From Rhodospirillaceae bacterium (GTDB lineage: Bacteria; Pseudomonadota; Alphaproteobacteria; GCA-2731375): 33,997 nt of DNA. A program made the position numbers and the translations under genes. This document shows, one piece after another, positions 19,503 to 32,718 of this stretch; within the stretch, counting starts at the first letter, position 1; every line of letters begins with the position of its first letter. A model generated the notes under the pieces. That model was not told the origin of the DNA, ran no database searches, and saw only the letters and a program-made list of their open reading frames with translations. Where the stretch lies: contig PCBT01000042.1 of NCBI GenBank assembly GCA_002731375.1, positions 29,681-63,677 of the forward strand, in the 5' to 3' direction.

Positions 19503-20633
19503 ATGACGGATTTTCCATCGGCTGAGTACGAGGCAAGGCTGGCGCGGGCCCAGGACGCGATGAGGGCTGCGCATCTTGATGCGCTGTTTTTCACGACTGA
19601 GGCGGAGATGCGGTATTTCACCGGATTTCGCACCTTGTTCTGGCAAAGTCCTACCCGGCCTTGGTTCTTGATAATTCCCCGCTCCGGCCTGCCCATCGCA
19701 ATTGTCCCCGAAATTGGTGCGGCGCTGATGCAAGCTACATGGCTGGACGACATCCGCACCTGGTGCTCGCCCCATGCCAGCGATGACGGCGTCTCCCTAC
19801 TGATCGAGGCTCTGCGGGGCAATGCTAGGATCGGCATGATGATGGGGCGGGAAAGCAGTCTGCGCATGCCTATGGTGGATTTTTGGAAGTTGCGGGATCG
19901 CCTGGAGAGCGCTTCATTTGTCGATGCCTCCGCATTGCTTCAGGGCCTACGCATGGTCAAGTCATCGGCAGAAATTCAGAAGATTGCAGCGATCTGCGCT
20001 ATAGCCAGCAATAGTTTCGCCAACGCCGCGCAGATTTTTCACGAAGGCCAGAGGCTGCGAGACGCATTCCGCGCCTTCAAGATCGATTTGCTCAACCAAG
20101 GCGCCGACGACGTACCCTATCTGGTCGGCGGAGCGGATCAGGGTGGATACGGCGATATAATTTCACCCCCCGGTGATGAACCGGTCAGGGCCGGCGACGT
20201 CCTGATGCTGGATACCGGCGCCACCCTGGACGGCTATTTTTGCGACTTTGACCGCAACTTCGCCTTTGGCCATGCCAGCGATGCAGCCAAAACCGCATAT
20301 GACACGCTGTTTCGCGCCACTGACGCGGCCCTACAGGCTGCCCGACCGGGCATGCGTTGCCGTGATCTGTACCGCGTCATGGCGGATGTCATTGCCCAGG
20401 ATGGCAGCGACGTGGGCCGATTCGGCCATGGCCTGGGCCTACAATTGACCGAAGCGCCGTCGCTGATCTCATTCGATGAAACCGTCCTGCGGTCAGATAT
20501 GGTCATTACCCTGGAACCAAGCATGACGGTGGGGCCGGGCAAGGTCATGGTGCATGAAGAAAACATCGTGATACATGAAAACGGCGCCGAATTGCTGAGC
20601 CGCCGCGCGCCACCTGAATTGCCCATTTTGTGA
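19503..20633 (+). CDS. M24 family metallopeptidase (Xaa-Pro peptidase / ectoine hydrolase-like)
   Basis: This 376-residue protein has an N-terminal creatinase-type domain and a C-terminal pita-bread fold. All five metal ligands are present: Asp237 in LDTGA, Asp248 in CDFDR, His309 in GHGLGLQLTEAP, Glu338 in TLEPSM and Glu352 in VHEENIV. Ligands are therefore intact and hydrolase activity is expected. The following gene is EutA-like, and the same pair (M24 hydrolase plus EutA) occurs in ectoine utilisation loci, so ectoine ring opening is a candidate role. EutB, EutC and EutE are not here, so this remains inference. It starts 13 nt after the sulfurtransferase stop. Confidence 0.88.
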   Translation: MTDFPSAEYEARLARAQDAMRAAHLDALFFTTEAEMRYFTGFRTLFWQSPTRPWFLIIPRSGLPIAIVPEIGAALMQATWLDDIRTWCSPHASDDGVSLLIEALRGNARIGMMMGRESSLRMPMVDFWKLRDRLESASFVDASALLQGLRMVKSSAEIQKIAAICAIASNSFANAAQIFHEGQRLRDAFRAFKIDLLNQGADDVPYLVGGADQGGYGDIISPPGDEPVRAGDVLMLDTGATLDGYFCDFDRNFAFGHASDAAKTAYDTLFRATDAALQAARPGMRCRDLYRVMADVIAQDGSDVGRFGHGLGLQLTEAPSLISFDETVLRSDMVITLEPSMTVGPGKVMVHEENIVIHENGAELLSRRAPPELPIL

Positions 20634-20643
20634 GGTGATGGCC

Positions 20644-21389
20644 ATGAAACTACCTTTCATTCTGGATCAAGGCATGGCGTCGCAAGCCGCCTTCGGCGTC
20701 ATCGTCCTGCAGGCGGACGAAACCCTGGAAGCCGAGTTTGCCGGTCTGTTCGATCGGCCCGGATTGGCGCTGTATCACACGCGTATTCCCAGCGGAGCCG
20801 AAGTCACGGCGGAAACACTGGCGGACATGGAACGCGAACTACCCCGCGCGGTATCCTTGCTACCTACCGCCGGGCCGCTGGATGTGGTGGCCTATGCCTG
20901 TACTTCAGGGGCGACGGTCATTGGGCCCGCGAACGTCGCCGACGCCATTCAGTCAATCCATTCCACGGCCAGTACCACCGATCCCCTGAGCGCCGTTATC
21001 GCGGCCTGCCGGCATCTTGGCATCAAGCGTCTGGGCGTCGTCAGCCCCTATGTCGCCGAAGTCTGCACGGCCATGAACAGCCTGCTCGAACAAAACGGCC
21101 TTACCATCGCCGCCTTCGGCTCGTTCGAGCAAAGCGAGGAAGCGCTCGTGGCCCGGATCACGCCTCAATCCGTGCATGACGCGGTTTGCGCCGTGGGCCG
21201 AAACGGTGATGTGGACGCCATCTTCGCCGCCTGCACCAACCTGCGCACCTTTGGAATCATAGACAGAGCGGAGGCAACGATCGACAAGCCAGTCATCACC
21301 TCCAACCAGGCTCTGGCCTGGCATATGCTGACGCTGGCCAATGCCACCACGAAAGGCGTCGGACCGGGAATGCTGTTCGACGGAAGCCC

Positions 21390-21393
<4 letters not shown>
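20644..21393 (+). CDS. Maleate isomerase / EutA-like Asp-Glu racemase superfamily protein
   Basis: This 249-residue protein has the two catalytic cysteines of the maleate isomerase, arylmalonate decarboxylase and EutA group: Cys86 in VAYACTSGA and Cys197 in FAACTNLRTF, with RLGVVSPYVAEV between. ATG at 20644 is preferred to GTG 20635 and ATG 20638 because GAGGTGA (20632-20638) then sits at normal distance. The upstream stop lies inside this site. The ORF ends in a TTAG that shares bases with the stop of the convergent bcp gene. The substrate could be a C4 dicarboxylate or an ectoine catabolite; sequence alone does not decide. Confidence 0.82.
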
Positions 21394-21863
<470 letters not shown>

Positions 21864-21876
21864 GCTTCATTCTCCC

Positions 21877-23601
21877 CTATTTGTTGTTTCGCAATGCGTC
21901 TGTCGCGCGCTCATCCACGGCACCGCTAGCATCGAGAACCACGCCATAAAGATCCCGCGCCGCGCTCAGCGAGACCATGCCGTCGCGCACGTCCACGGCG
22001 ACCTTGGCGGCATCTCGCTGAAATGGATCGCCATAGCCGCCGCCGCCCGGCATTTCCAGATGCAGACGGTCGTTGCGCGGTATGGACTGCGTGCCCTTGT
22101 TGTTCAGGACCTCACCAGAAGTAAGTTCAACATTGCCCGTGAAACCGTCCAGGCCGCCTTCCCGCCCGCGCGGGGCATGGTGCACACGGTCAAAGGTGGC
22201 AGCGATGGCAAAGGGCGCGTTTTCGGAACTGGCGATTTGCATCACCTGCCCGGTCCCGCCACGGAATTCGCCCGCGCCGCCCGAATCCGTGCGGTATTCC
22301 TTTTTCCAGACCACGATGGGCGCAATGGACTCGTTGATCTCTACCGGCGTGTTGCGCACCCCGGAGGGAAACGCCGTTGCCGACAGGCCATCCTTGTGCG
22401 GCCGCGCGCCCGCACCACCCGTATGGAACAGCCCAACCGCGAACGGCGTCGCATCGGCAAAATCTTCGCCGGGCACCAGGCCATGGCCGCCCATCAGAGC
22501 CGGGTTCCACAGACACGATGTACCTTCGGCGGGCGCCCGGCCGGCTACCGCCTTGTGCAGGCAGCCCATCACCACGTCTGGCAGCATCTGGCCCGTAATA
22601 TGCCGCGCGGCAACGGCGCAAGGGTGCGGCGCGTTCAGGATCGTGCCTTCGGGCGCGGTCACTTTCACGGCGGAGAGCGAGCCGGCATTGTTCGGCACGG
22701 TCGGCCCCACCAAGCAGCGCACGCCAAACGAAGCATAAGCCTGGGTATAGGTAATCGGCACGTTGATGCCTTTGTTGGAGACCCCGGTGGAGCCGGCGAA
22801 ATCCACATAAATACCGTCATCGGCAATGGTCAGGGCGGCGACCAGATCCAACGGCTTGTCATAGCCATCGACCCGCATGGAATTGTGGTAGGTACCCTTG
22901 GGCAGCTTGGCGATTTCATCCAGCATGGCCTGATGGGAATGTTGCACCATGTACTGGCCCAGCCCATCCAGATTATCCAGACCGAACTCGTCCATCATTT
23001 CCACCAGGCGGCGGCAACCGATTTCGTTACAGGCGGTCAGGGAATACAGATCGCCCTCGACCTGGATCGGCTCGCGCACATTGGCGCGGACAATTTCCAG
23101 AATGGCCTCGTCCATTTTGCCCGCCTTGGCTAGCGGCAAAATGGGCAGATACAGCCCCTCGTCATAGACCTGCCGGCCATCGGCGCCAAAGCCTATACCG
23201 CCCACATCTACAACGTGAGTCGTCGAGGCGAACAGGCCCACGGCCTTGCCCTGATAAAAGGTCGGCGTGACCATGGTGAAATCATGCAGATGGCCGGTGC
23301 CCAGCCAGGGATCGTTGGTGACGTAGACATCGCCGGGGCTCATAGTATCGGCGGGATACTTGTCCAAAAAGAACTCGACCGAAGCGGCCATGGCATTGAC
23401 ATGGCCCGGCGTGCCAGTGACCGCCTGCGCCAACATGCGGCCTTGAGTGTCGAAAACACCGGCGGAGAGATCGCCGGCCTCACGGGCCGCGGTGGAAAAG
23501 GCCGTGCGGATCAGGGTTTGCGCCTGTTCCTCGACAATGGCTATCAGACGGTTCCACATGATCTGGTTTTGGATTTCCGATAGGGCTGAATTCTTGCTCA
23601 T
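21877..23601 (-). CDS. hyuB: Hydantoinase B / oxoprolinase beta family subunit
   Basis: This 574-residue subunit is of the HyuB, N-methylhydantoinase B and acetone carboxylase alpha family. Landmarks are SEIQNQIMWNRLIAIVEEQ at the N-terminus, AAREAGDLSAGVFD, the metal-site stretch GDVYVTNDPWLGTGHLHD, STTHVVDVGG, NAPHPCAVAARHITGQMLPDVV, and the C-terminal MPGGGGYGDP. The protein works with HyuA in ATP-dependent opening of hydantoin-like or oxoproline rings. It overlaps hyuA by 4 nt (23598-23601), so the two subunits are made in parallel. The ring substrate is unknown. Confidence 0.9.
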   Translation of the reverse strand: MSKNSALSEIQNQIMWNRLIAIVEEQAQTLIRTAFSTAAREAGDLSAGVFDTQGRMLAQAVTGTPGHVNAMAASVEFFLDKYPADTMSPGDVYVTNDPWLGTGHLHDFTMVTPTFYQGKAVGLFASTTHVVDVGGIGFGADGRQVYDEGLYLPILPLAKAGKMDEAILEIVRANVREPIQVEGDLYSLTACNEIGCRRLVEMMDEFGLDNLDGLGQYMVQHSHQAMLDEIAKLPKGTYHNSMRVDGYDKPLDLVAALTIADDGIYVDFAGSTGVSNKGINVPITYTQAYASFGVRCLVGPTVPNNAGSLSAVKVTAPEGTILNAPHPCAVAARHITGQMLPDVVMGCLHKAVAGRAPAEGTSCLWNPALMGGHGLVPGEDFADATPFAVGLFHTGGAGARPHKDGLSATAFPSGVRNTPVEINESIAPIVVWKKEYRTDSGGAGEFRGGTGQVMQIASSENAPFAIAATFDRVHHAPRGREGGLDGFTGNVELTSGEVLNNKGTQSIPRNDRLHLEMPGGGGYGDPFQRDAAKVAVDVRDGMVSLSAARDLYGVVLDASGAVDERATDALRNNK

Positions 23602-25685
23602 GCGGCTTCTCCCGTCTTCCGCGATATTTCAATATGGCCAGCAGCATCAACCTTGGCCTGAAAATGCGATGTTACCGCCGTTGTTGTCTGCGCCTCGGCG
23701 ATCAAGGCCGGTCCCTGCAAGGTCATGCCAGGGGACATATCGGCGCGTTGATAGACAGGCGCGGCGACGAAATCGGTCAGGTCCGCATCGAACAGCTTTC
23801 GTTCGCCGCTGGCCGCTGCAGCACCGGCGTCGGAAACATCGGCCTGTGCCGGCGATGTTGGCTGTATGGTCGCAATGGATAGGGCCCAGGTCAGGATTTC
23901 CACTTCCATGGAGGGGATGTCCCGGCCGAACAGATCCACGTAAGCCTTGTCGTAGGCCGCGCGGAGAGCCGGGCCATCATCCTTGGTCAAGGCCCGCGCG
24001 GGCACCTCGACGACGATCTCATGGCCCTGGCCGATATAGCGCATGTAGGCGATTCGACGTTCTTCCAGCCGTGCATTCGGCGCACCGGAAACCACGATGG
24101 CATGGGCCTCGTCATGCATCTCCGCGAACATCTTGTTCAGGCCCTCCGGCTCGAACGCCGCCAGGTGCGTATAGCGGCTACGCACCACTTCATACGAGAC
24201 CGGCGCGGCCAGAAAACCGATGGCGGAGCCGACGCCCGCGCCTTGCGGGATGATAACCCGGTCCATGCCCAATTTTTCAGCCATACGGCAGGCATGCAGG
24301 GGCGCCGCGCCGCCAAAGGCGATCAAGGTTCGCTCGGACAGCTCCTTGCCTTGTTCCACCGCATGTACACGGGCCGCGTTGGACATGTTCTCTTCCACCA
24401 TCTCGGAGACGGCGAAGGCCGCCAGGGGCCCGTCGAGATTGAGCTTCTGCGCAATGGTTTCGTCGAGCACCGCATCCGCTAGTTCCGGCGATAGCGCCAC
24501 CGAACCACCAGCGAACCCTTCCGGCGAGATTCGGCCCAGGGCCACATCGGCGTCCGTGACCGTGGCCCCCGTCCCGCCCTGGCCATAGCAGGCCGGGCCG
24601 GGTTCGGAGCCAGCGCTTTCCGGCCCCACCTGAATGCGGCCCAGATTATCGATCTGCGCGATGGAACCGCCACCAGCGCCGATTTCGACCATCTCGATCA
24701 CAGGAATACGCAGGGGTAGGCCGCTGCCCTTGGTAAAGCGGTATTGCCGGTCGACCTCGAAAGTGCGGGAGGTTTGCGGCCGGCCCTCGTCAATCAGGCA
24801 GATTTTCGCCGTGGTGCCGCCCATGTCATAGGACAGCACCTTGTCCAAACCACATTCCATGGCGATATGCCCGGCCAGGATGGCGCCGCCGGCGGGTCCG
24901 GATTCGACCAGACGGATAGGATGCCGCCGCGCGGTTTCGACCGTGGTCAGGCCGCCGCCAGAGGTCATCATGAACAGTGGGCATGTGGCGCCCTCGTCAC
25001 GCAAACAGGCATCCAGATCCGCCAGATACGATGCCATCAAAGGCTGCACATAGGCGTTGGCTGAGGCCGTGGACATACGTTCGTATTCGCGGATTTCCGG
25101 GCAGACTTCGGACGACAGGGTGATCCACAGATCCGGCAGCTTAGCGTGCAGGATATCGGCCACCCGCTGTTCATGCGCCGCATTGGCATATGAATGCATC
25201 AATGTGATAGCAACGCTTTCCACACCATTGTCGCGCAACATGGGCACCAGCGCACGGACGCTTTTTTCATCCAGATCCAGCAGCACATCACCCTTGGCGT
25301 TGCAGCGCTCCAGTACGGGCAGGCGCAGATAGCGGGGCACCAAGGGTACCGGTTTATCAATATTGATGTCGTATTGGTCAAAGCGGTGCTCGTAGCCCAT
25401 CTCGACCGCGTCACGGAAACCTTCGGTAACGATCAAGGCGGTTTTGGCGCCCTTGCGCTGGATCACCGTGTTCGTGGCTAAGGTGGTGCCGTGGACGACG
25501 AAATCCAAGTCCTTAGCAGCGATCCCGGCCTCGGGCAAGACGGCGCGGACGCCGGCCATGACACCCTCTTCCGGTGCCTGTGGGGTGGTCAGGACCTTGC
25601 GCGTGAACATCGCGCCGCCGAGGTCGAGGGCTACATCGGTAAAGGTGCCGCCGATATCAACGGCTAAACGGGCAGTTTCAGACAT
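23598..25685 (-). CDS. hyuA: Hydantoinase A / oxoprolinase alpha family ATPase subunit
   Basis: This 695-residue ATP-dependent partner of HyuB belongs to the ASKHA fold. Visible motifs are VDIGGTFTDVALD (phosphate 1), HGTTLATNTVIQRKGAK, SSEVCPEIREYERMSTASANAYV, VLSYDMGGTTAKICLI (phosphate 2), EIGAGGGSIA, and GPACYGQGGTGATVTDADV. FGGAAPLHACRMAEKLGM and PQGAGVGSAIGFL are conserved. It is full length and apparently intact. Gene order LLM oxidoreductase, hyuA, hyuB, bcp with short gaps suggests one operon for degradation of a cyclic amide. Confidence 0.92.
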   Translation of the reverse strand: MSETARLAVDIGGTFTDVALDLGGAMFTRKVLTTPQAPEEGVMAGVRAVLPEAGIAAKDLDFVVHGTTLATNTVIQRKGAKTALIVTEGFRDAVEMGYEHRFDQYDINIDKPVPLVPRYLRLPVLERCNAKGDVLLDLDEKSVRALVPMLRDNGVESVAITLMHSYANAAHEQRVADILHAKLPDLWITLSSEVCPEIREYERMSTASANAYVQPLMASYLADLDACLRDEGATCPLFMMTSGGGLTTVETARRHPIRLVESGPAGGAILAGHIAMECGLDKVLSYDMGGTTAKICLIDEGRPQTSRTFEVDRQYRFTKGSGLPLRIPVIEMVEIGAGGGSIAQIDNLGRIQVGPESAGSEPGPACYGQGGTGATVTDADVALGRISPEGFAGGSVALSPELADAVLDETIAQKLNLDGPLAAFAVSEMVEENMSNAARVHAVEQGKELSERTLIAFGGAAPLHACRMAEKLGMDRVIIPQGAGVGSAIGFLAAPVSYEVVRSRYTHLAAFEPEGLNKMFAEMHDEAHAIVVSGAPNARLEERRIAYMRYIGQGHEIVVEVPARALTKDDGPALRAAYDKAYVDLFGRDIPSMEVEILTWALSIATIQPTSPAQADVSDAGAAAASGERKLFDADLTDFVAAPVYQRADMSPGMTLQGPALIAEAQTTTAVTSHFQAKVDAAGHIEISRKTGEAA

Positions 25686-25712
25686 GCAAATTCTACTCTT
25701 TGTCTTAGCGTT

Positions 25713-26711
25713 CTAGCGGGGAAAATTCTCGGGTGTAAAGGCCTCGAATGTACGTCGGACATCCTCCGGCGAGGCCGGCAAGGGTGCGATGATATGGGTA
25801 TGTATACCAGTTTCACCGGCCCAACGGATACGTTCGTGGCATTCGTCCGCCGTGCCAATGATGGCGATGTCGTTGGCCAATTCGTATGACAGCGCGCCCG
25901 TGGTCTTGGCCCGATCGCGCTCGGCCCAGCCTTCGCGGATGGTGGCCGCCACATCCTCGTAGCCGGCCCAGGAGAGAAAGTTGTTGTAGACCGGCGTCGC
26001 ATAATAGGGGGCCATGCGGCCCCGGAAGGCATCAATCGCGGCGTCCTTGTCATCGGTGACCAGCACCAGATGTCGGTTCACCACTTCAACCTCCGCCGGA
26101 TCCTTGCCGGCCCGTTCGGCACCGATGTGGAGATGCTCAATCATCTTGGGCAGAGCCTTTCTGGGCCACAGGTTGAAAATCACGCCATCACCGACTTCCG
26201 TCGCCATCTCGATCATCTTGGGGCGCAGGGCGGCCAGGTAAATCGGCACCTCGTGCTCCAGGGCTGGTTGGGTATAGCCCTTGGAATAGAGAGTGGAGAG
26301 ATCGAAGTTCGATTTTTCCCCCGCCAGCATGGAGCGGACCATGATGGCGGTCTCCCTCACCCTGGTCAGGGGTTTCTGCAGGGGTACCCCGTTCCATTGA
26401 TCCATCATGGTCTGGGACGAGGCGCCCAGGCCAAGAACAACCCGTCCAGGCATCAGTTGGCCCAGGGTATTGGCCGTCGCCGCCAACACCGCCGGAGTGC
26501 GGGAATAGACCGGCACGATGGCGATGCCAAGACGCAACGTCGGCGCATGCGCGGCCAGGCCGGCCATCAGGGTCAGGGAATCCGGCGATCCCGTATCCGA
26601 CATCCAGCCGTCTTCATAGCCGTTCGCCTCGGCCCATTTGACCCGCTTGATGGTGTCGGAAACGCTTTGTCCGGCAGGTATTGTGACGGCGATACGTTGG
26701 CGTGGCGGCAT
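25713..26711 (-). CDS. Luciferase-like (LLM) flavin/F420-type oxidoreductase
   Basis: This 332-residue TIM-barrel oxidoreductase of the luciferase-like superfamily resembles methylenetetrahydromethanopterin-reductase-like members. The N-terminus RIAVTIPAGQSVSDTIKRVKWAE, LRLGIAIVPVYSRTPAVLA, GRVVLGLGASS and VPIYLAALRPKMIEMATEVGDGVIFNL are typical. Whether it uses F420 or FMN cannot be read from sequence. It begins the operon with hyuA after a 27-nt gap, which hints at an oxidative or reductive step on the same substrate. It is divergent from the SMP-30 gene across 111 nt, where both promoters should lie. Confidence 0.85.
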   Translation of the reverse strand: MPPRQRIAVTIPAGQSVSDTIKRVKWAEANGYEDGWMSDTGSPDSLTLMAGLAAHAPTLRLGIAIVPVYSRTPAVLAATANTLGQLMPGRVVLGLGASSQTMMDQWNGVPLQKPLTRVRETAIMVRSMLAGEKSNFDLSTLYSKGYTQPALEHEVPIYLAALRPKMIEMATEVGDGVIFNLWPRKALPKMIEHLHIGAERAGKDPAEVEVVNRHLVLVTDDKDAAIDAFRGRMAPYYATPVYNNFLSWAGYEDVAATIREGWAERDRAKTTGALSYELANDIAIIGTADECHERIRWAGETGIHTHIIAPLPASPEDVRRTFEAFTPENFPR

Positions 26712-27756: not shown

Positions 27757-28491
27757 CTAGCTTAAACAGGCGGAACGTAACGCGGCGCGTGCAGCGTCAT
27801 CGAGTCCAAGAACCTCTTCCAGATACGACTCCACAGTGCCGCACTGGCCTTCTATCGCTGCGAATGCTGCCGTCAAATATTCCTCGCGGGCGGAAAAAAT
27901 CGAGGCGACGGTTTCGGGGTCCATGCCCGGACGTTCCCGGCCAGCCCGGTCCCAATACTGATTGGTCAGCAAATAGTCCTCGAACACGGTTTCGCGCGGC
28001 ACGCCCAGGGCCGACAGCACCAGGGCGGCGGCGGTGCCGGCGCGGTCCTTGCCGGCGGTGCAATGCACGATAACCCGGTCACCCGCCGCCAGTCGGCGCA
28101 TCAAGGTGCCGTAGCCCTTGGCATAGAGGAACGGATAATTGCTGTAATTTTCGGTTAAATATGTGCGCGCTGTTTCCGCCGCGTCGGGGGCGGCCTGAAA
28201 GCTATCCAGGAACGAAACACCGGGCCGCTCATCCAGTCCCAGCTCCAGCACCTCAACCTGATCATGGTTCAGAAACCGCGACGGCTCCTCCGCCCGCTCA
28301 TCGCCATAGCGCAGGTCAACGGCAGTGTTCACGCCCAATTCGCAAACCGTGGCAATATCGGCATCGGTAAGTGACGAGAGTGTATCGGAACGATAAAAGG
28401 TCCGCCATTTAACGCTTTCACCACTCGCGGTCCGGTAGCCACCCATATCACGAAAGTTCGAAACCCCTTCGAGTTCGATACGTCTTTCCAT
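27757..28491 (-). CDS. Tyrosine-protein phosphatase (dual-specificity-like, CX5R)
   Basis: This 244-residue protein has the P-loop IVHCTAGKDRAGTA with nucleophile Cys144 and Arg150, and the N-terminal GVSNFRDMGGYRT signature of bacterial PTPs that also act on phosphoinositides or small phosphates. Asp in the WPD-like region is not obvious. Start ATG 28491 gives the normal family N-terminus; a GTG at 28548 would add 19 residues with no resemblance. The upstream GGAG is rather distant (about 12 nt). It is the last gene of the minus-strand operon that holds the UGSC protein. Confidence 0.85.
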   Translation of the reverse strand: MERRIELEGVSNFRDMGGYRTASGESVKWRTFYRSDTLSSLTDADIATVCELGVNTAVDLRYGDERAEEPSRFLNHDQVEVLELGLDERPGVSFLDSFQAAPDAAETARTYLTENYSNYPFLYAKGYGTLMRRLAAGDRVIVHCTAGKDRAGTAAALVLSALGVPRETVFEDYLLTNQYWDRAGRERPGMDPETVASIFSAREEYLTAAFAAIEGQCGTVESYLEEVLGLDDAARAALRSACLS

Positions 28492-28591
28492 CTGCTTCGT
28501 CGTCTCCTTTTTGTTGGTCTGGGTCCATTGGCCCCACCGGTGTGCCACCGGCTAAGGCGAACACATCCACAGCGCCGACCGGCAGCGTAGC

Positions 28592-29803
28592 CTAGAACAG
28601 GTCCCGGATGGTCCGCCGGGCCAGTTGCGACATATGCACCTCGTCCGGTCCGTCAGCGACCTGGCAGAAACGAGCGGTCATATAGATATGGGACAGCGGG
28701 GTATCTTGCGTGAAGCCGGCGCCGCCATAGGCCTGGATCGCCCGGTTGGCAACGTCCAGCGCCATTTTCGGCGCGATGACCTTGACCATGGAGATATAGT
28801 CGCGCGCCTCCTTGGGGCCGTATTTGTCCATTTTGTCAGCGGCGGTCAGAACCAGCATGCGGCATTGTTCGATCTCGCAGCGGGAACGCGCGATGTCATG
28901 CTGAATGGAGGTTTTCTGGGACAGCCTTTCGCCGAACGCCTCGCGCTCCTCAACCCGGCGGCACATCAGCTCCAAACAGCGATGCGCCATGCCCACGAAC
29001 ATCATGGCATATTGGAAGCGTCCCGGCCCGAGGCGGCCTTGCGCGATCTCGAAACCCCGGCCCTCACCCAGGATCAGATTTTCTAACGGCACACGCACAT
29101 TATCGTAATGCACCTGGGCATGACCGCCCGGTGAATGCACGCCGCCAAAGACCCGCAGTGGCCGTTCCAGAATGACGCCTGGCGTATCTTTAGGCACCAG
29201 GATCATGGAGAATTGTTTGTGGCGCACGGCCTCGGTATCGGTCTTGCCCATGACCACGAAAATCTTGCACAGGGGGTTATAGGCGTTCGAGGTGAACCAC
29301 TTGCGGCCATTGATGACATATTCATCGCCGTCGCGGACGATGGTGGTTTCCAAGTTGCCCGCATCGGAGGATGCCACCGCCGGTTCCGTCATCGAGAAAG
29401 CGGAGCGGATTTTTCCGGCCAGCAGCGGCAACAACCATTTGTCCTGTTGTTCGGGCGTGCCGAATCGTGCCAGCACCTCCATATTGCCCCGGTCAGGTGC
29501 AGAGCAGTTGAAGACTTCCTGGGCCCAGGGGACCCTGGCCATATGCTCCATGATCGGGGCGAATTCCAGGTTGGAAAGGCCTGGGCTGAACTGGTCATAC
29601 TCCTTGTTCAGGAACCAGTTCCAGATGCCAGCTTCCCGGGCCTTGGCTTTCAGATCCTCGAACCACGGCGGATACTGCCAGAGGTTTTCCTGATCATCGA
29701 CCCATTCCCAATGGTCCAGTTCGCGCGGGTAGATATGCTCCTTCATGAAGACATCGACCTGCGCAATCATTTCGGCAACTTGGTCGGAATAATCTAAGTC
29801 CAT
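28592..29803 (-). CDS. Acyl-CoA dehydrogenase family protein (ACAD10/11-like)
   Basis: This 403-residue FAD enzyme introduces a double bond next to the CoA thioester of an acyl group. The features are SAFSMTEPAVASSDAGNLETTI (FAD and substrate segment), WFTSNAYNPLCKIFVVMGKT, GEGRGFEIAQGRLGPGRFQYAMM, the AYGGAGFTQDTPLSHIYMTAR segment and the C-terminal DGPDEVHMSQLARR, characteristic of the clade near ACAD10/11. It lies 59 nt after the UGSC gene on the same strand. The acyl substrate is unknown. Confidence 0.9.
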   Translation of the reverse strand: MDLDYSDQVAEMIAQVDVFMKEHIYPRELDHWEWVDDQENLWQYPPWFEDLKAKAREAGIWNWFLNKEYDQFSPGLSNLEFAPIMEHMARVPWAQEVFNCSAPDRGNMEVLARFGTPEQQDKWLLPLLAGKIRSAFSMTEPAVASSDAGNLETTIVRDGDEYVINGRKWFTSNAYNPLCKIFVVMGKTDTEAVRHKQFSMILVPKDTPGVILERPLRVFGGVHSPGGHAQVHYDNVRVPLENLILGEGRGFEIAQGRLGPGRFQYAMMFVGMAHRCLELMCRRVEEREAFGERLSQKTSIQHDIARSRCEIEQCRMLVLTAADKMDKYGPKEARDYISMVKVIAPKMALDVANRAIQAYGGAGFTQDTPLSHIYMTARFCQVADGPDEVHMSQLARRTIRDLF

Positions 29804-29862: not shown

Positions 29863-30390
29863 TCAAGCTTGCTCCGTCAGCGCAGCGATGATCCGGTCCA
29901 CGTGGCCCTCGGCCAAGGCATGTAATTCCGCGTCCGTACGGTCCTGAATTGGATGGGGCACCCAGATGTAGGCAGGGTCGAAACCCAGCGCCTCCGACTG
30001 CACCGCCGCCGCCTCGATGAATTCGGTAGTGGCGACGCCAACGCTAGGTATGCCGCGATTTTCTAGATTCAACATATCATGCATACAGCACGATGTGCAG
30101 CTGCCTCAATCGGCAAGGCCTTCGACAACCACGTCCACTTCCTCGACGATGGCCTTTTCGATTTCCTTGGGCGCGGTCCGTGCCACGGTGGGCTTGCGGT
30201 AGCGTTTAACGGTAATGCCGCGGCCTTCCAACAGGGTGGCGAGATGTTCGACGAAGACGTCGCCGCGCACCTTGGAAATATCCAGCACCCCGACGGTCAA
30301 ACCGTCCAACGAAGTTGGGCGGGCCAAGCGCGGTTTCTCCACCGCCTCCCGCTCCCCCGTGGGGTCCAACAGGGCGTCCGCAATACTCAT
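29863..30390 (-). CDS. UGSC-family selenoprotein (in-frame TGA read as Sec95)
   Basis: The minus strand reads MSIADALLDPTGERE... to EGLAD (residues 1-94), then TGA, then GSCTSCCMHDMLNLENRG without frame change to residue 175 (TEQA) and a terminal TGA. The TGA falls exactly at the U of the U-G-S-C motif that names this (seleno)protein family. Coding similarity continues on both sides, so recoding fits better than a nonsense mutation. Sec95 and Cys98 form a U-x-x-C redox pair, with Cys101 and Cys102 close by. The N-terminal part has a Rossmann-like GLTVGVLDISKVRGDVFVE strand. The gene overlaps the thioredoxin-fused partner by ATGA. The function is unknown. SelA-D machinery should be elsewhere in the genome. 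Confidence 0.85.
30085..30104 (-). promoter_or_regulatory. Candidate stem-loop just after the Sec codon (SECIS-like position)
   Basis: On the minus strand GCAC-ATC-GTGC forms a 4-bp apical stem, extended by GCA/TGT below a three-base GCT bulge. It begins 1-8 nt after the TGA, where a bacterial SECIS is expected. The loop lacks the early G of the usual bacterial consensus, so this is only a candidate. Confidence 0.25.
30106..30108 (-). other. Recoded TGA selenocysteine codon
   Basis: The TGA stands between GLAD and GSCTSC codons in frame. It is the single internal stop of the UGSC gene, and the gene's real stop is also TGA. Confidence 0.8.
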
Positions 30391-31814
30391 GTCTTGATCT
30401 CCTTTGTGACAGGCCGGCTGGATTCGGGCGTACCGGGAGTCCAGCCGGGAATGATACCGGAAAATTTGCCCGCACCGCCGCCTGCTCGAACAATCAATAG
30501 TCCAGTGGGCAGCAGCTTCGGCACGGTCTGGCCGGCCAGTTCCGGCTTCACACCTTCGGCCATACCGTGAGCACCGCGCATGACGTCCTCTGCCGGCAGC
30601 TGCATGCGCGCCATGATTTCGGAATGGAACCGCGCCTTATCCCAGCCCCCCTGCATCAGGGTAATTTCATGCTCGGGGCACACCACTAGCAAACAATCGG
30701 GGCCGGGGATCTTGTGAATGTTATCCACGGCATGCAGAGAGGTGGCGAAGGTCTGCGCCAACTCCTCAGGCGATCGCGCCTTGTCGTCGATCACGCCCTG
30801 CAGACCATAGCCGGCAAATACGGTGACCGCGTTAGCACCCGCCTTCAAGCCGCGATCCACTGTCATTGGCTCCCAAGCGGAACCCTCCTCGTCCTCGCAG
30901 AAGCAATAACTAAGCTTGCCCGGATTGCCCAGGGTGGCCCGGTCAACACCCTGTGGCTTGCCGCCGCCAATATTGCGGACCGCCAGATTGACCGCCCGGC
31001 CAATGGTGGCGTTGGCACGGTTGCCCTGGCCCAAGGCATTGCCCTTGCCGTTCATATCGATCTGCTTGGCAATGGGACCGTTGACGATAACCACGGGGCC
31101 GACGAAGCGCGTCGTCGCCAAGGTGCCATGCAGGCAGTAATCCTCGTCCAAAACAGCCTCGATGGCGGCCAGCACCACAGGCATATAATCGGGCCGGCAG
31201 CCGGCCATCACGGCGTTGATGGCAACTTTTTCCACTGTGCAGATATCCAGGTTCGAGGGCATCAACCCCAGGACCTCATCCGCCGCACGTGTGGTGCCTT
31301 CCAACATGGCCAGGACACGTTCCTGGGTCGGCGGGACGACGGGCAGGCCGTCGCTCCAGCCCCGTTCGAAACAGGCCTCTATGGCGTCTTCCTTGGCACC
31401 AAGGGATACCAGGCGAGAAACCATGGGCGTATCGCCGTGGCGGATTTTCAGTTCCGCCAGGTAATCCTGCTCTTGATTAAGGGCGCCGCAGCCGGGCTTG
31501 AACGCGGGCAGATCCGCGCCCAGATCATCCCGACCTGTCAGGCTTTCCCACGCCACGCGGTCCCATCCGTATGTGCGCTCAACCTCCGCGCCATCCTGGA
31601 AACGCACCAACGTGGGCACGATTTCTACCTCCAGGCGGTAGGAGATATCCAGGGCCGTATCGTCGGCGACGTCCATGCCTTCAGGAAATCCGGGATCGTC
31701 CTGGCTATACACCGTCAGGCCGCCGTCGCTTTCGAGCTGCTGCAGCACCGGGGCCACCATGACGCAGGTCGGGCAGTCCCGTTTGACTATGGCGATCAAT
31801 CCATTTTCTTGCAT
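30387..31814 (-). CDS. Thioredoxin-domain fusion, large partner of the UGSC protein
   Basis: This 475-residue protein begins with a thioredoxin-like domain (about 1-95): CPTC at 14-17 and the cis-Pro in EIVPTLV (Pro67). The rest (about 130-475) starts with GWSDGLPVVPPTQERVLAML, has conserved segments VEKVAINAVMAGCRPDYMPVV and VIVNGPIAKQIDMNGKGNALG, and shows no catalytic family I can name. GGGAGAG lies upstream of the ATG. The TGA overlaps the ATG of the UGSC gene. The thioredoxin part probably recycles the U-x-x-C site of the partner; this is inference from architecture and coupling. No signal peptide is seen, so both should be cytosolic. Confidence 0.75.
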   Translation of the reverse strand: MQENGLIAIVKRDCPTCVMVAPVLQQLESDGGLTVYSQDDPGFPEGMDVADDTALDISYRLEVEIVPTLVRFQDGAEVERTYGWDRVAWESLTGRDDLGADLPAFKPGCGALNQEQDYLAELKIRHGDTPMVSRLVSLGAKEDAIEACFERGWSDGLPVVPPTQERVLAMLEGTTRAADEVLGLMPSNLDICTVEKVAINAVMAGCRPDYMPVVLAAIEAVLDEDYCLHGTLATTRFVGPVVIVNGPIAKQIDMNGKGNALGQGNRANATIGRAVNLAVRNIGGGKPQGVDRATLGNPGKLSYCFCEDEEGSAWEPMTVDRGLKAGANAVTVFAGYGLQGVIDDKARSPEELAQTFATSLHAVDNIHKIPGPDCLLVVCPEHEITLMQGGWDKARFHSEIMARMQLPAEDVMRGAHGMAEGVKPELAGQTVPKLLPTGLLIVRAGGGAGKFSGIIPGWTPGTPESSRPVTKEIKT

Positions 31815-31834: not shown

Positions 31835-32623
31835 CTATGGGTCCCGGCCGCCGAGGCTTTCGATCTTGTCCTGCATACGGCGCATGCCGTTCAACCAGCG
31901 TTCCAGATCGTTGGCCTTGCCATCCATCCAGGTCTGGGCGATTTCATCGGTCAAAATAAGAAAGCGTTCTTCCTCCACCGCCGTGGCCACCTGTTCGGCG
32001 ACTTCCTCCGGTTCCTTGATGGGGCCGGTAGCGGTAGCCGCGAATGGCTTTGTCACATCCCCCAGCATAGGCGTGCGCACGCCCAGCGGCGCCAGTAACG
32101 AAACCCGGATACCCTGATGATGATGGGTGATGGAAAGATACTCCGCCAGACCGACCACCGCATGTTTCGACACGGTGTAGGGTAGATTGCCGTGAGAGAT
32201 CAGAATGCCGGCCATGGATGCGGTGTGCAGCAGATAGCCGCCGCCCCGTTCGATCATGCCCGGCATCACCGCGCGGGCGGCATAGACATGGGACATGAAA
32301 TTGACCCGCCATTGATCTTCCCAGACCGACAGATCCGTATTGAGCAATTCCCGGCCCGAATTGATGCCCGCGTTGGAAAAGAAAATATCGATCGGGCCAT
32401 AGGCATCTTCCGCGGCCTTGACCAGGGCATCGATCTCGGCCTCTTCACCCACATCACAGCCGACGCCCAGACCGCCGAATTCGGCAGCCACCGCCTTGGC
32501 GCCATCACCGTTCAGATCGGCGACCACCACCTTGGCGCCGCGCGCGGCGAAGTTGCGGCAGCAGGCCGCCCCTATGCCCGAGGCGCCACCCGTTACCACC
32601 GCTACTTTATCCTTGAACTGCAT
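31835..32623 (-). CDS. Short-chain dehydrogenase/reductase
   Basis: This 262-residue NAD(P)-dependent oxidoreductase has TGGASGIGAA (cofactor), NAGINSG, the Ser in TASMAG, Tyr and Lys in YTVSKHA and LAPLGVRTPML. The ATG at 32623 gives the normal MQFKDKVAVVTGG start; a start at 32683 would add 20 unrelated residues. It is the first gene of the minus-strand operon and is followed after 20 nt by the thioredoxin-fused protein. It is therefore a candidate to supply or consume the substrate of the UGSC pair. It is divergent from the LLM gene at 32719. Confidence 0.88.
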   Translation of the reverse strand: MQFKDKVAVVTGGASGIGAACCRNFAARGAKVVVADLNGDGAKAVAAEFGGLGVGCDVGEEAEIDALVKAAEDAYGPIDIFFSNAGINSGRELLNTDLSVWEDQWRVNFMSHVYAARAVMPGMIERGGGYLLHTASMAGILISHGNLPYTVSKHAVVGLAEYLSITHHHQGIRVSLLAPLGVRTPMLGDVTKPFAATATGPIKEPEEVAEQVATAVEEERFLILTDEIAQTWMDGKANDLERWLNGMRRMQDKIESLGGRDP

Positions 32624-32718
32624 ATTTATCCCACCCGCCTGTGAATTCTCATCTAGCCTACCCCGCCCCGCTTGGGTGTACAATCAAGCCGGAAATTTTT
32701 CGAATAAAGGAAGCAGTC

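Follow-up and report, generated by a model that had tools for sequence, protein, structure and literature searches.

The question raised by the 33,997-nucleotide stretch of Rhodospirillaceae DNA analysed here (hereafter the window) is whether two adjacent minus-strand open reading frames (ORFs), separated by an in-frame TGA, are a single gene in which that TGA is read as selenocysteine (Sec) and, if so, what the encoded protein does. An original prediction, made from the DNA without database searches, had proposed that the two ORFs conceal one selenoprotein of the UGSC family. We find a single frame of 175 codons, with TGA at codon 95, whose product passes the cut-offs of that family.

29863..30390, minus strand: UGSC-family selenoprotein gene, with ATG at 30390 and stop TGA at 29865-29863; 175 amino acids with read-through.
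30106..30108, minus strand: in-frame TGA, predicted Sec codon 95, in the motif U-G-S-C-T-S-C.

The string TGA-GGC-AGC-TGC-ACA-TCG-TGC-TGT lies at 30108..30085 on the minus strand. A mechanical ORF list cuts the frame there into pieces of 94 amino acids (30390..30106) and 73 amino acids (30084..29863), as had been expected of ordinary gene callers, and the frame continues for 80 residues past U95 to its real stop, as had also been foreseen. In the read-through protein, the context of U95 is DUGSCTSC; the first position of the UGSC motif, which may be Sec or Cys, is TGA at codon 95 and is followed by G-S-C. The read-through protein scores 138.6 bits against NCBIfam NF041046 (UGSC_fam; curated cut-off 125, E = 1.5e-40) and 148 bits against Pfam PF24696 (UGSC; curated cut-off 25), with matches that cross both ORF halves (residues 29-172 and 7-172, respectively). 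Since both cut-offs are passed and the matches cover both halves, the frame is not a chance artefact, and the protein is a member of the catalogued UGSC family. What we add to this known family is a partner gene, a comparison of selenocysteine insertion sequence (SECIS) elements, a predicted fold and a link to GrdB/PrdB, and with them a testable functional hypothesis.

Conservation extends past the TGA, where ten positions (G96, S97, C98, C101, D105, F124, G136, H146, P147 and A160) are invariant among 16 members. U95, C98 and C101 are invariant among 16 Sec members, C101 being replaced by Trp, Gly or Ala in more distant ones, and homologues carry Sec or Cys at residue 95. The original prediction had also read redox catalysis from a U-x-x-C site together with a Cys-Cys pair. 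C98 is the better candidate for such a role, and the Cys-Cys argument fails: given that residue C102 is Ser in 12 of the 16 members and that its TGT codon falls in the apical loop of an RNA hairpin described below, C102 is no evidence for redox chemistry, and we rejected the Cys-Cys pair as a redox site.

PF24696 occurs in 38 of 385 genomes of the class, with 104 matches in total. Exactly one in-frame TGA is present in 98 of these matches, a count tallied by eye from a table that is silent on the position of the TGA within the match; the other six have none, and two of them are fragments off the site. Reading at the DNA level, in a set that omits duplicates and copies outside a search pattern that sought a stop or a Cys codon, yielded 56 distinct copies with TGA at the motif U and 29 distinct copies with TGC or TGT. 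All 31 rows without TGA that were read have Cys at the site, and a copy from the same genus (L088), 84% identical to that of the window, has TGA at the same place. A contig scan with a back-translated Cys pattern (DCGSC) located 27 loci in Pseudomonadota, Bacteroidota and Actinomycetota, which are all of the Cys type and uninformative on the ratio of Sec to Cys because the pattern itself was Cys. We also made a quick tree from 54 Sec and 31 Cys rows (85 in all), which is limited by long branches and a midpoint root. In this tree the Sec/Cys label changes 5 times, compared with a mean of 25.4 for shuffled labels, and a single starred group, nested within the Sec rows, takes in 25 of the Cys rows. 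A search of viral contigs found no relative of the UGSC protein.

The window lies on contig C42 of the source genome (G000), an assembly of 115 contigs that is 96.2% complete. The four components of Sec decoding for which the original prediction had proposed a search are all present in this genome. The tRNA-Sec gene, on contig C7, scores 73.1 bits against a cut-off of 47 and is called by ARAGORN as tRNA-SeC with anticodon tca; selB (426.5 bits) and selA (579.7 bits) adjoin on contig C63, both over their cut-offs; and selD is over its cut-off at 381.4 bits and has one in-frame TGA of its own. A second place above the tRNA-Sec cut-off is C47:11040-11125 (L002), at 50.5 bits against 47. A second selD (313 bits; the two are L018 and L019) lies inside a 756-residue frame that may be a SelD fusion of the type known in marine bacteria. 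We also surveyed selA in the 38 genomes with PF24696 and in 42 of the 347 without it (those with low handle numbers, G001-G045). It is over its cut-off in 34 of the 35 genomes with TGA copies, in one of the three with only TGA-less copies, and in 2 of the 42 without the family; the sole genome with a TGA copy and no selA over the cut-off, G011, is 77% complete. The distance between selA and a UGSC gene is 3.5 to 6.4 kb in four genomes (G341, G091, G123 and G057; loci L112, L113, L114 and L106).

The RNA that follows the TGA can form a hairpin.

30076..30094, minus strand: SECIS-like hairpin, nucleotides (nt) 15-33 with the U of UGA as nt 1, consisting of 7 base pairs (bp), loop UGUAU and GU at nt 23-24.

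According to the available text of two papers, a bacterial SECIS is a hairpin just after the UGA with its loop 16-37 nt away (PMC10778597) and has a G in the loop (PMC4607533). The window hairpin begins 11 nt past the UGA, with a distance of 18 nt from UGA to loop, and fits both the published loop distance and the loop G. We compared the stem (nt 15-21 with 27-33) across 49 of the 56 Sec copies (48 distinct rows by the tool's count), seven having been dropped for poor pairing in this register (L084, L091, L092, L095, L102, L106 and L118). In these 49 copies, 92.6% of cells are paired, 11 cells are altered on both sides and the covariation score is 0.211 as compared with 0.121 in shuffles, each of which was reached in 0 of 500 shuffles; the number of pairs altered on both sides was reached in 4 of 500. 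Stem registers slid along the sequence pair at just 5.7-45.8%, and when all 56 Sec copies are counted, 339 of 392 stem cells (86%) are paired. The 29 Cys copies are 71.4% paired (59 of 500 shuffles) with covariation at 63 of 500, no clear excess over shuffles, and synonymous-codon shuffles give a mean z of -1.50 for Sec copies and -0.44 for Cys copies. GU at nt 23-24 is found in 48 of the 56 Sec copies and in none of the 29 Cys copies; it sits one base earlier in six more Sec copies and is absent in two. Five copies (L083, L089, L090, L094 and L111) have exchanged C21-G27 for G21-C27, which turns Cys into Trp on one side and, on the other, Leu into Phe in four copies and Met into Ile in one. 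Protein letters near the Sec codon therefore follow an RNA pair. By eye, a hairpin with a GU loop also follows most of 14 other TGAs from the source genome and its relatives (13 PrdB-like TGAs and that of selD). Rfam has no match in the window at gathering scores.

On the strength of these comparisons, we regard it as nearly certain that the window gene is a genuine selenoprotein gene in which UGA95 is decoded as Sec. Two results count against this reading. In folding stability, the hairpin of the window does not stand out from shuffles (z of 0.34, and 0.1 in synonymous-codon shuffles), and the source assembly is fragmented, with an estimated contamination of 6.66%; the worry over contamination is eased by the way in which selA tracks TGA copies across genomes. 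If the TGA were a real stop, produced by a nonsense mutation, a sequencing error or decay into a two-piece pseudogene, the mechanical division into two ORFs would be accounted for. Such an origin is extremely improbable given the single in-frame TGA in nearly every family match, its shared place in the same-genus copy, the presence of selA with TGA copies and the covariation of the hairpin; for the family, the shared TGA, the selA co-occurrence and the covariation rule out a nonsense mutation or pseudogene. Insertion of another amino acid, or inefficient near-cognate read-through that would leave mainly a 94-residue product, is very improbable in view of the complete Sec machinery, the SECIS-like hairpin and the presence of Cys, the analogue of Sec, at the site in the 31 TGA-less rows.

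Given a selenoprotein, the question becomes what it acts with. The gene immediately upstream overlaps it.

30387..31814, minus strand: partner gene, 475 amino acids; its stop overlaps the UGSC start (ATGA at 30390-30387).
31479..31814 (end approximate), minus strand: partner N-terminal domain, thioredoxin-like, with a CxxC at residues 14-17; TIGR01068, E = 2.5e-4.
30390..31478, minus strand: C-terminal domain of the partner, with DGLPVVPP, AGCRP and GRA..N; no Pfam or NCBIfam family matches it.

PDB thioredoxins match the partner N-terminus from E = 0.03 and weaker, and C14 and C17 are kept in all 39 sequences that cover them. In about 100 homologous partner stretches, DG.P, AGC.P and GRA..N are conserved, as are C206 (95 of 99) and C304 (90 of 98). 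Of 69 UGSC copies, a set that includes near-copies, 65 have a same-strand partner homologue no more than 3 kb away, and in 63 of these the distance is within 200 bp. The partner is upstream of UGSC in 48 cases and downstream in 17; nine copies have two partners, one of these being two UGSC-partner pairs side by side in L116. Nine partner-domain ORFs were found in the source genome, all at its seven UGSC loci, and the thioredoxin part is present in two of the nine. Given the near-constant adjacency and the ATGA overlap, we infer that the UGSC protein is very probably the selenium subunit of a two-component enzyme whose other component is the upstream-encoded partner. Against this, four of the 69 copies have no partner nearby (L079, L098, L115 and L117), of which L079 is explained by a contig end.

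Several further observations concern the partner. The partner-less L098 and L117 form one clade in the tree. The two ends of contig C73 (82786 bases; L134 and L079) share exactly 99 bases, with a UGSC gene at the junction and a partner just across it, which probably marks a circular replicon, or else a repeat in the assembly, that carries a UGSC-partner pair. Directly after the partner, L084, L091 and L095 have a gene that belongs to one cluster (c8); the one of the three that was scanned, that of L091, is a pyridine-nucleotide disulphide oxidoreductase, and the cluster may represent thioredoxin reductase. Divergent UGSC clades (L084, L091, L095 and L106; L083, L090, L094 and L111) are followed by a pair of distinct partner-domain genes rather than a single one, an arrangement suggestive of an enzyme with three subunits. 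The available part of a GOS study describes a fusion of UGSC with an unknown domain (PMC2398784), and this domain may be the partner.

We compared the UGSC profile with those of other Sec enzymes. In hhalign, UGSC against PrdB-like proteins scores 41.1, compared with at most 21.9 in 400 shuffles and at most 24.5 for 38 other profiles; the alignment places Sec on Sec, and the kinship is limited to about 70 columns around it. The window protein gives weak hidden Markov model (HMM) matches to the C-terminal part of the GrdB (1.7e-4) and GrdF (2.5e-4) models, short of the GrdB-model cut-offs, and distant UGSC members match PrdB at 1.1e-3 and 2.7e-3. U95, C98 and C101 of the window protein form a UxxCxxC motif, and such a motif is described for GrdB in the available text of PMC13188914. 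These likenesses make it likely that UGSC belongs to one broad superfamily with the Sec subunits GrdB (glycine/betaine/sarcosine reductase) and PrdB (D-proline reductase). Several results weigh on the other side. Among 11 UGSC proteins tested, five have no GrdB or PrdB match at E <= 1; Pfam PF07355 matches neither the window protein (E <= 0.001) nor the 16 members (E <= 10); the narrow alignment A1 gave no alignment with PrdB-like proteins in global mode; the third Cys of UxxCxxC is lost in distant Sec members; and NCBIfam shows no kinship of the partner to GrdE or PrdA.

With PrdB and PrdB-like proteins (PF07355), UGSC shares the profile match around Sec, and both kinds occur in the source genome, whereas UGSC differs in its shorter N-terminus, the third Cys of the window subfamily, its other partner and its absence from PF07355 by Pfam. 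With GrdB, GrdF and GrdH it shares the weak C-terminal HMM matches, UxxCxxC and the presence of several paralogues per genome; it differs in having 175 residues as compared with models of 431-435, and in a host that is probably aerobic. No pyruvoyl-type alpha subunit (PF09338), GrdA (PF04723) or GrdE-type gene was matched in the source genome, control genomes being equally silent. The portion of PMC10838667 available to us describes GrdB relatives as substrate-specific sets in one genome, with one set proposed for C-F cleavage, and the seven UGSC loci and seven PF07355 places of the source genome resemble that multi-set pattern. The PF07355 places, GrdB/PrdB-like, are on contigs C46, C92, C89 (two), C9, C85 and C25 (loci within L119-L133). 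L119 and 12 PrdB-like genes of relatives continue through TGA in U-P-x-C; if the other six places also do so, the source organism would have about 14 selenoproteins of the superfamily. A PDB search with one PrdB-like protein gave five matches (best 0.22), which we take as chance, and thus no solved relative of that protein was found.

A thioredoxin fold for UGSC has been suggested in print, in a source available to us in part. The predicted model of the UGSC protein has a mean predicted local distance difference test (pLDDT) value of 89.2 and is an alpha/beta sandwich of five alternating strands and helices, with U95 between the strand at 87-93 and a helix that starts at 96. Its order, E-H-E-H-E-H-E-H-E-H, presumably differs from that of thioredoxin. 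The 50 listed PDB neighbours, from VIA-align over Foldseek's own candidates, are response-regulator, PurE, LarB, TIR and other alpha/beta folds; none is described as thioredoxin, a result that does not by itself exclude that fold. The thioredoxin profile is outside the best 12 of 39 profiles against UGSC, and a PDB sequence search with the UGSC profile gave three matches at E <= 10, the best (0.0093) being ATP synthase gamma, which we take as chance. The thioredoxin fold thus finds no support in profile ranking, model topology or listed neighbours, and the model points to an alpha/beta sandwich instead. Thioredoxin-fold selenoproteins (Prx-like and Trx-like) share the UxxC motif with UGSC but differ from its own predicted fold; here the thioredoxin-like domain sits in the partner.

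As an explanation of the whole, we favour, with some reserve, a thioredoxin-driven two-component C-X reductase of the GrdB/PrdB superfamily made up of the UGSC selenoprotein and its partner. In such an enzyme, host SelA, SelB, SelD and tRNA-Sec would decode UGA95 as Sec, aided by the hairpin. The partner C-terminal domain would bind the substrate, and the Sec selenolate would attack a carbon that adjoins a carbonyl or thioester, with loss of an amine or other leaving group. C98, together with C101 in members that have it, would resolve the adduct or oxidised Sec. The partner thioredoxin domain, or a separate thioredoxin system for partners that lack this domain, would then return it to the reduced state. 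The overall mode would be like that of glycine or proline reductase, with each UGSC paralogue serving another catabolic pathway. That the reaction is a reductive C-X cleavage, the chemistry and substrate of which are conjectural, we regard as possible, though somewhat short of probable.

On the same strand, the order is short-chain dehydrogenase, partner, UGSC, acyl-CoA dehydrogenase and tyrosine-phosphatase-like protein.

31835..32683, minus strand: short-chain dehydrogenase, directly upstream of the partner; PF00106, E = 2.8e-44.
28592..29803, minus strand: acyl-CoA dehydrogenase, next downstream; PF00441, E = 1.2e-38.
27757..28548, minus strand: tyrosine-phosphatase-family protein (Y_phosphatase3); PF13350, E = 2.2e-63.

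Across UGSC loci, 30 neighbouring proteins of 874 called were scanned. Among them are many transporters and enzymes of acyl-CoA, keto acids or amino acids, including acyl-CoA dehydrogenase, CoA-transferase III, aldolase, enolase superfamily and beta-keto acid cleavage enzyme; we name no substrate from them because these families are common everywhere. At five Bacteroidota loci, a beta-keto acid cleavage enzyme, the partner and UGSC stand in a row (one scanned, the rest assigned by cluster). The Bacteroidota cluster comprises aconitase X, an amino acid permease, 3-hydroxyacyl-CoA dehydrogenase and AraC, together with the beta-keto acid cleavage enzyme, partner, UGSC and an S9 peptidase. This context may hint at a beta-hydroxy amino acid or betaine as substrate, but the neighbours of other UGSC copies differ. 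Elsewhere in the window, a block at 19503..26711 contains genes that resemble, below the curated cut-offs in every case, M24 peptidase/ectoine hydrolase, EutA and, as a pair, caprolactamase/hydantoinase; homologues of the pair lie near the UGSC gene of the same-genus locus L088.

Two other functions have to be weighed against a C-X reductase. UGSC could be a thioredoxin-fold thiol/selenol oxidoreductase or peroxidase that acts on oxidants with the partner as reductant, as the published fold suggestion, the UxxC motif and the thioredoxin-like domain of the partner would allow. The confident model with its alternating strands and helices, the lack of any neighbour described as thioredoxin among the 50 listed and the absence of the thioredoxin profile from the best 12 of 39 speak against it. 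Moreover, several copies per genome stand beside different genes (those of the window, L080, L081 and L083 were examined), which fits poorly with a general antioxidant, and we consider this function quite doubtful. It is also unlikely, though a little less so, that UGSC and its partner reduce some other substrate, such as oxidised sulphur or nitrogen, a metal or a metalloid, and that the likeness to GrdB/PrdB is one of fold and Sec position alone. The confinement of the profile kinship to the columns around Sec would agree with this, as would the failure to find a pyruvoyl-type alpha subunit or GrdA, although the controls were silent as well. The scanned neighbours, often genes for acyl-CoA, keto-acid or amino-acid enzymes and none named for metals or metalloids, argue mildly in the other direction, these families being common.

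The sources available to us in part place UGSC among the most abundant selenoproteins of aquatic metagenomes, with 255 Sec sequences in GOS (PMC2398784) and 8.2% of selenoprotein genes (PMC9402790). A 2026 review, which credits UGSC to a 2007 paper, counts it, in the text available, among selenoproteins whose functions are largely uncharacterised (PMC13188914), in agreement with the original prediction that no function was established. The available portions of PMC2398784, PMC13188914, PMC9312934, PMC1088965, PMC10778597, PMC4607533, PMC9402790, PMC5029168, PMC7539508 and PMC10838667, and the literature search listings, contain no assigned function for UGSC and no link to PrdB or GrdB. A literature search that joined betaine reductase, selenoprotein, aerobic bacteria and thioredoxin returned nothing.

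The near-constant partner, the link to glycine and proline reductase and the existence of cultivated carriers of the Cys type, such as Methylobacterium brachythecii DSM 24105 with L076, make the function of UGSC testable. Selenium-based reductive cleavage is usually seen as a matter of anaerobic amino-acid fermentation. We tentatively propose that UGSC and its partner may represent a new class of reductive C-X lyase, dependent on selenium and driven by thioredoxin, in aerobic bacteria: a sister of glycine and proline reductase that has another kind of second subunit and lacks both GrdA and a pyruvoyl subunit, present in seven substrate-specific versions in one genome, and with a Cys version spread between Pseudomonadota and Bacteroidota. 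If this is true, selenium-based reductive cleavage would be a widespread catabolic tool that reaches beyond anaerobic amino-acid fermentation.
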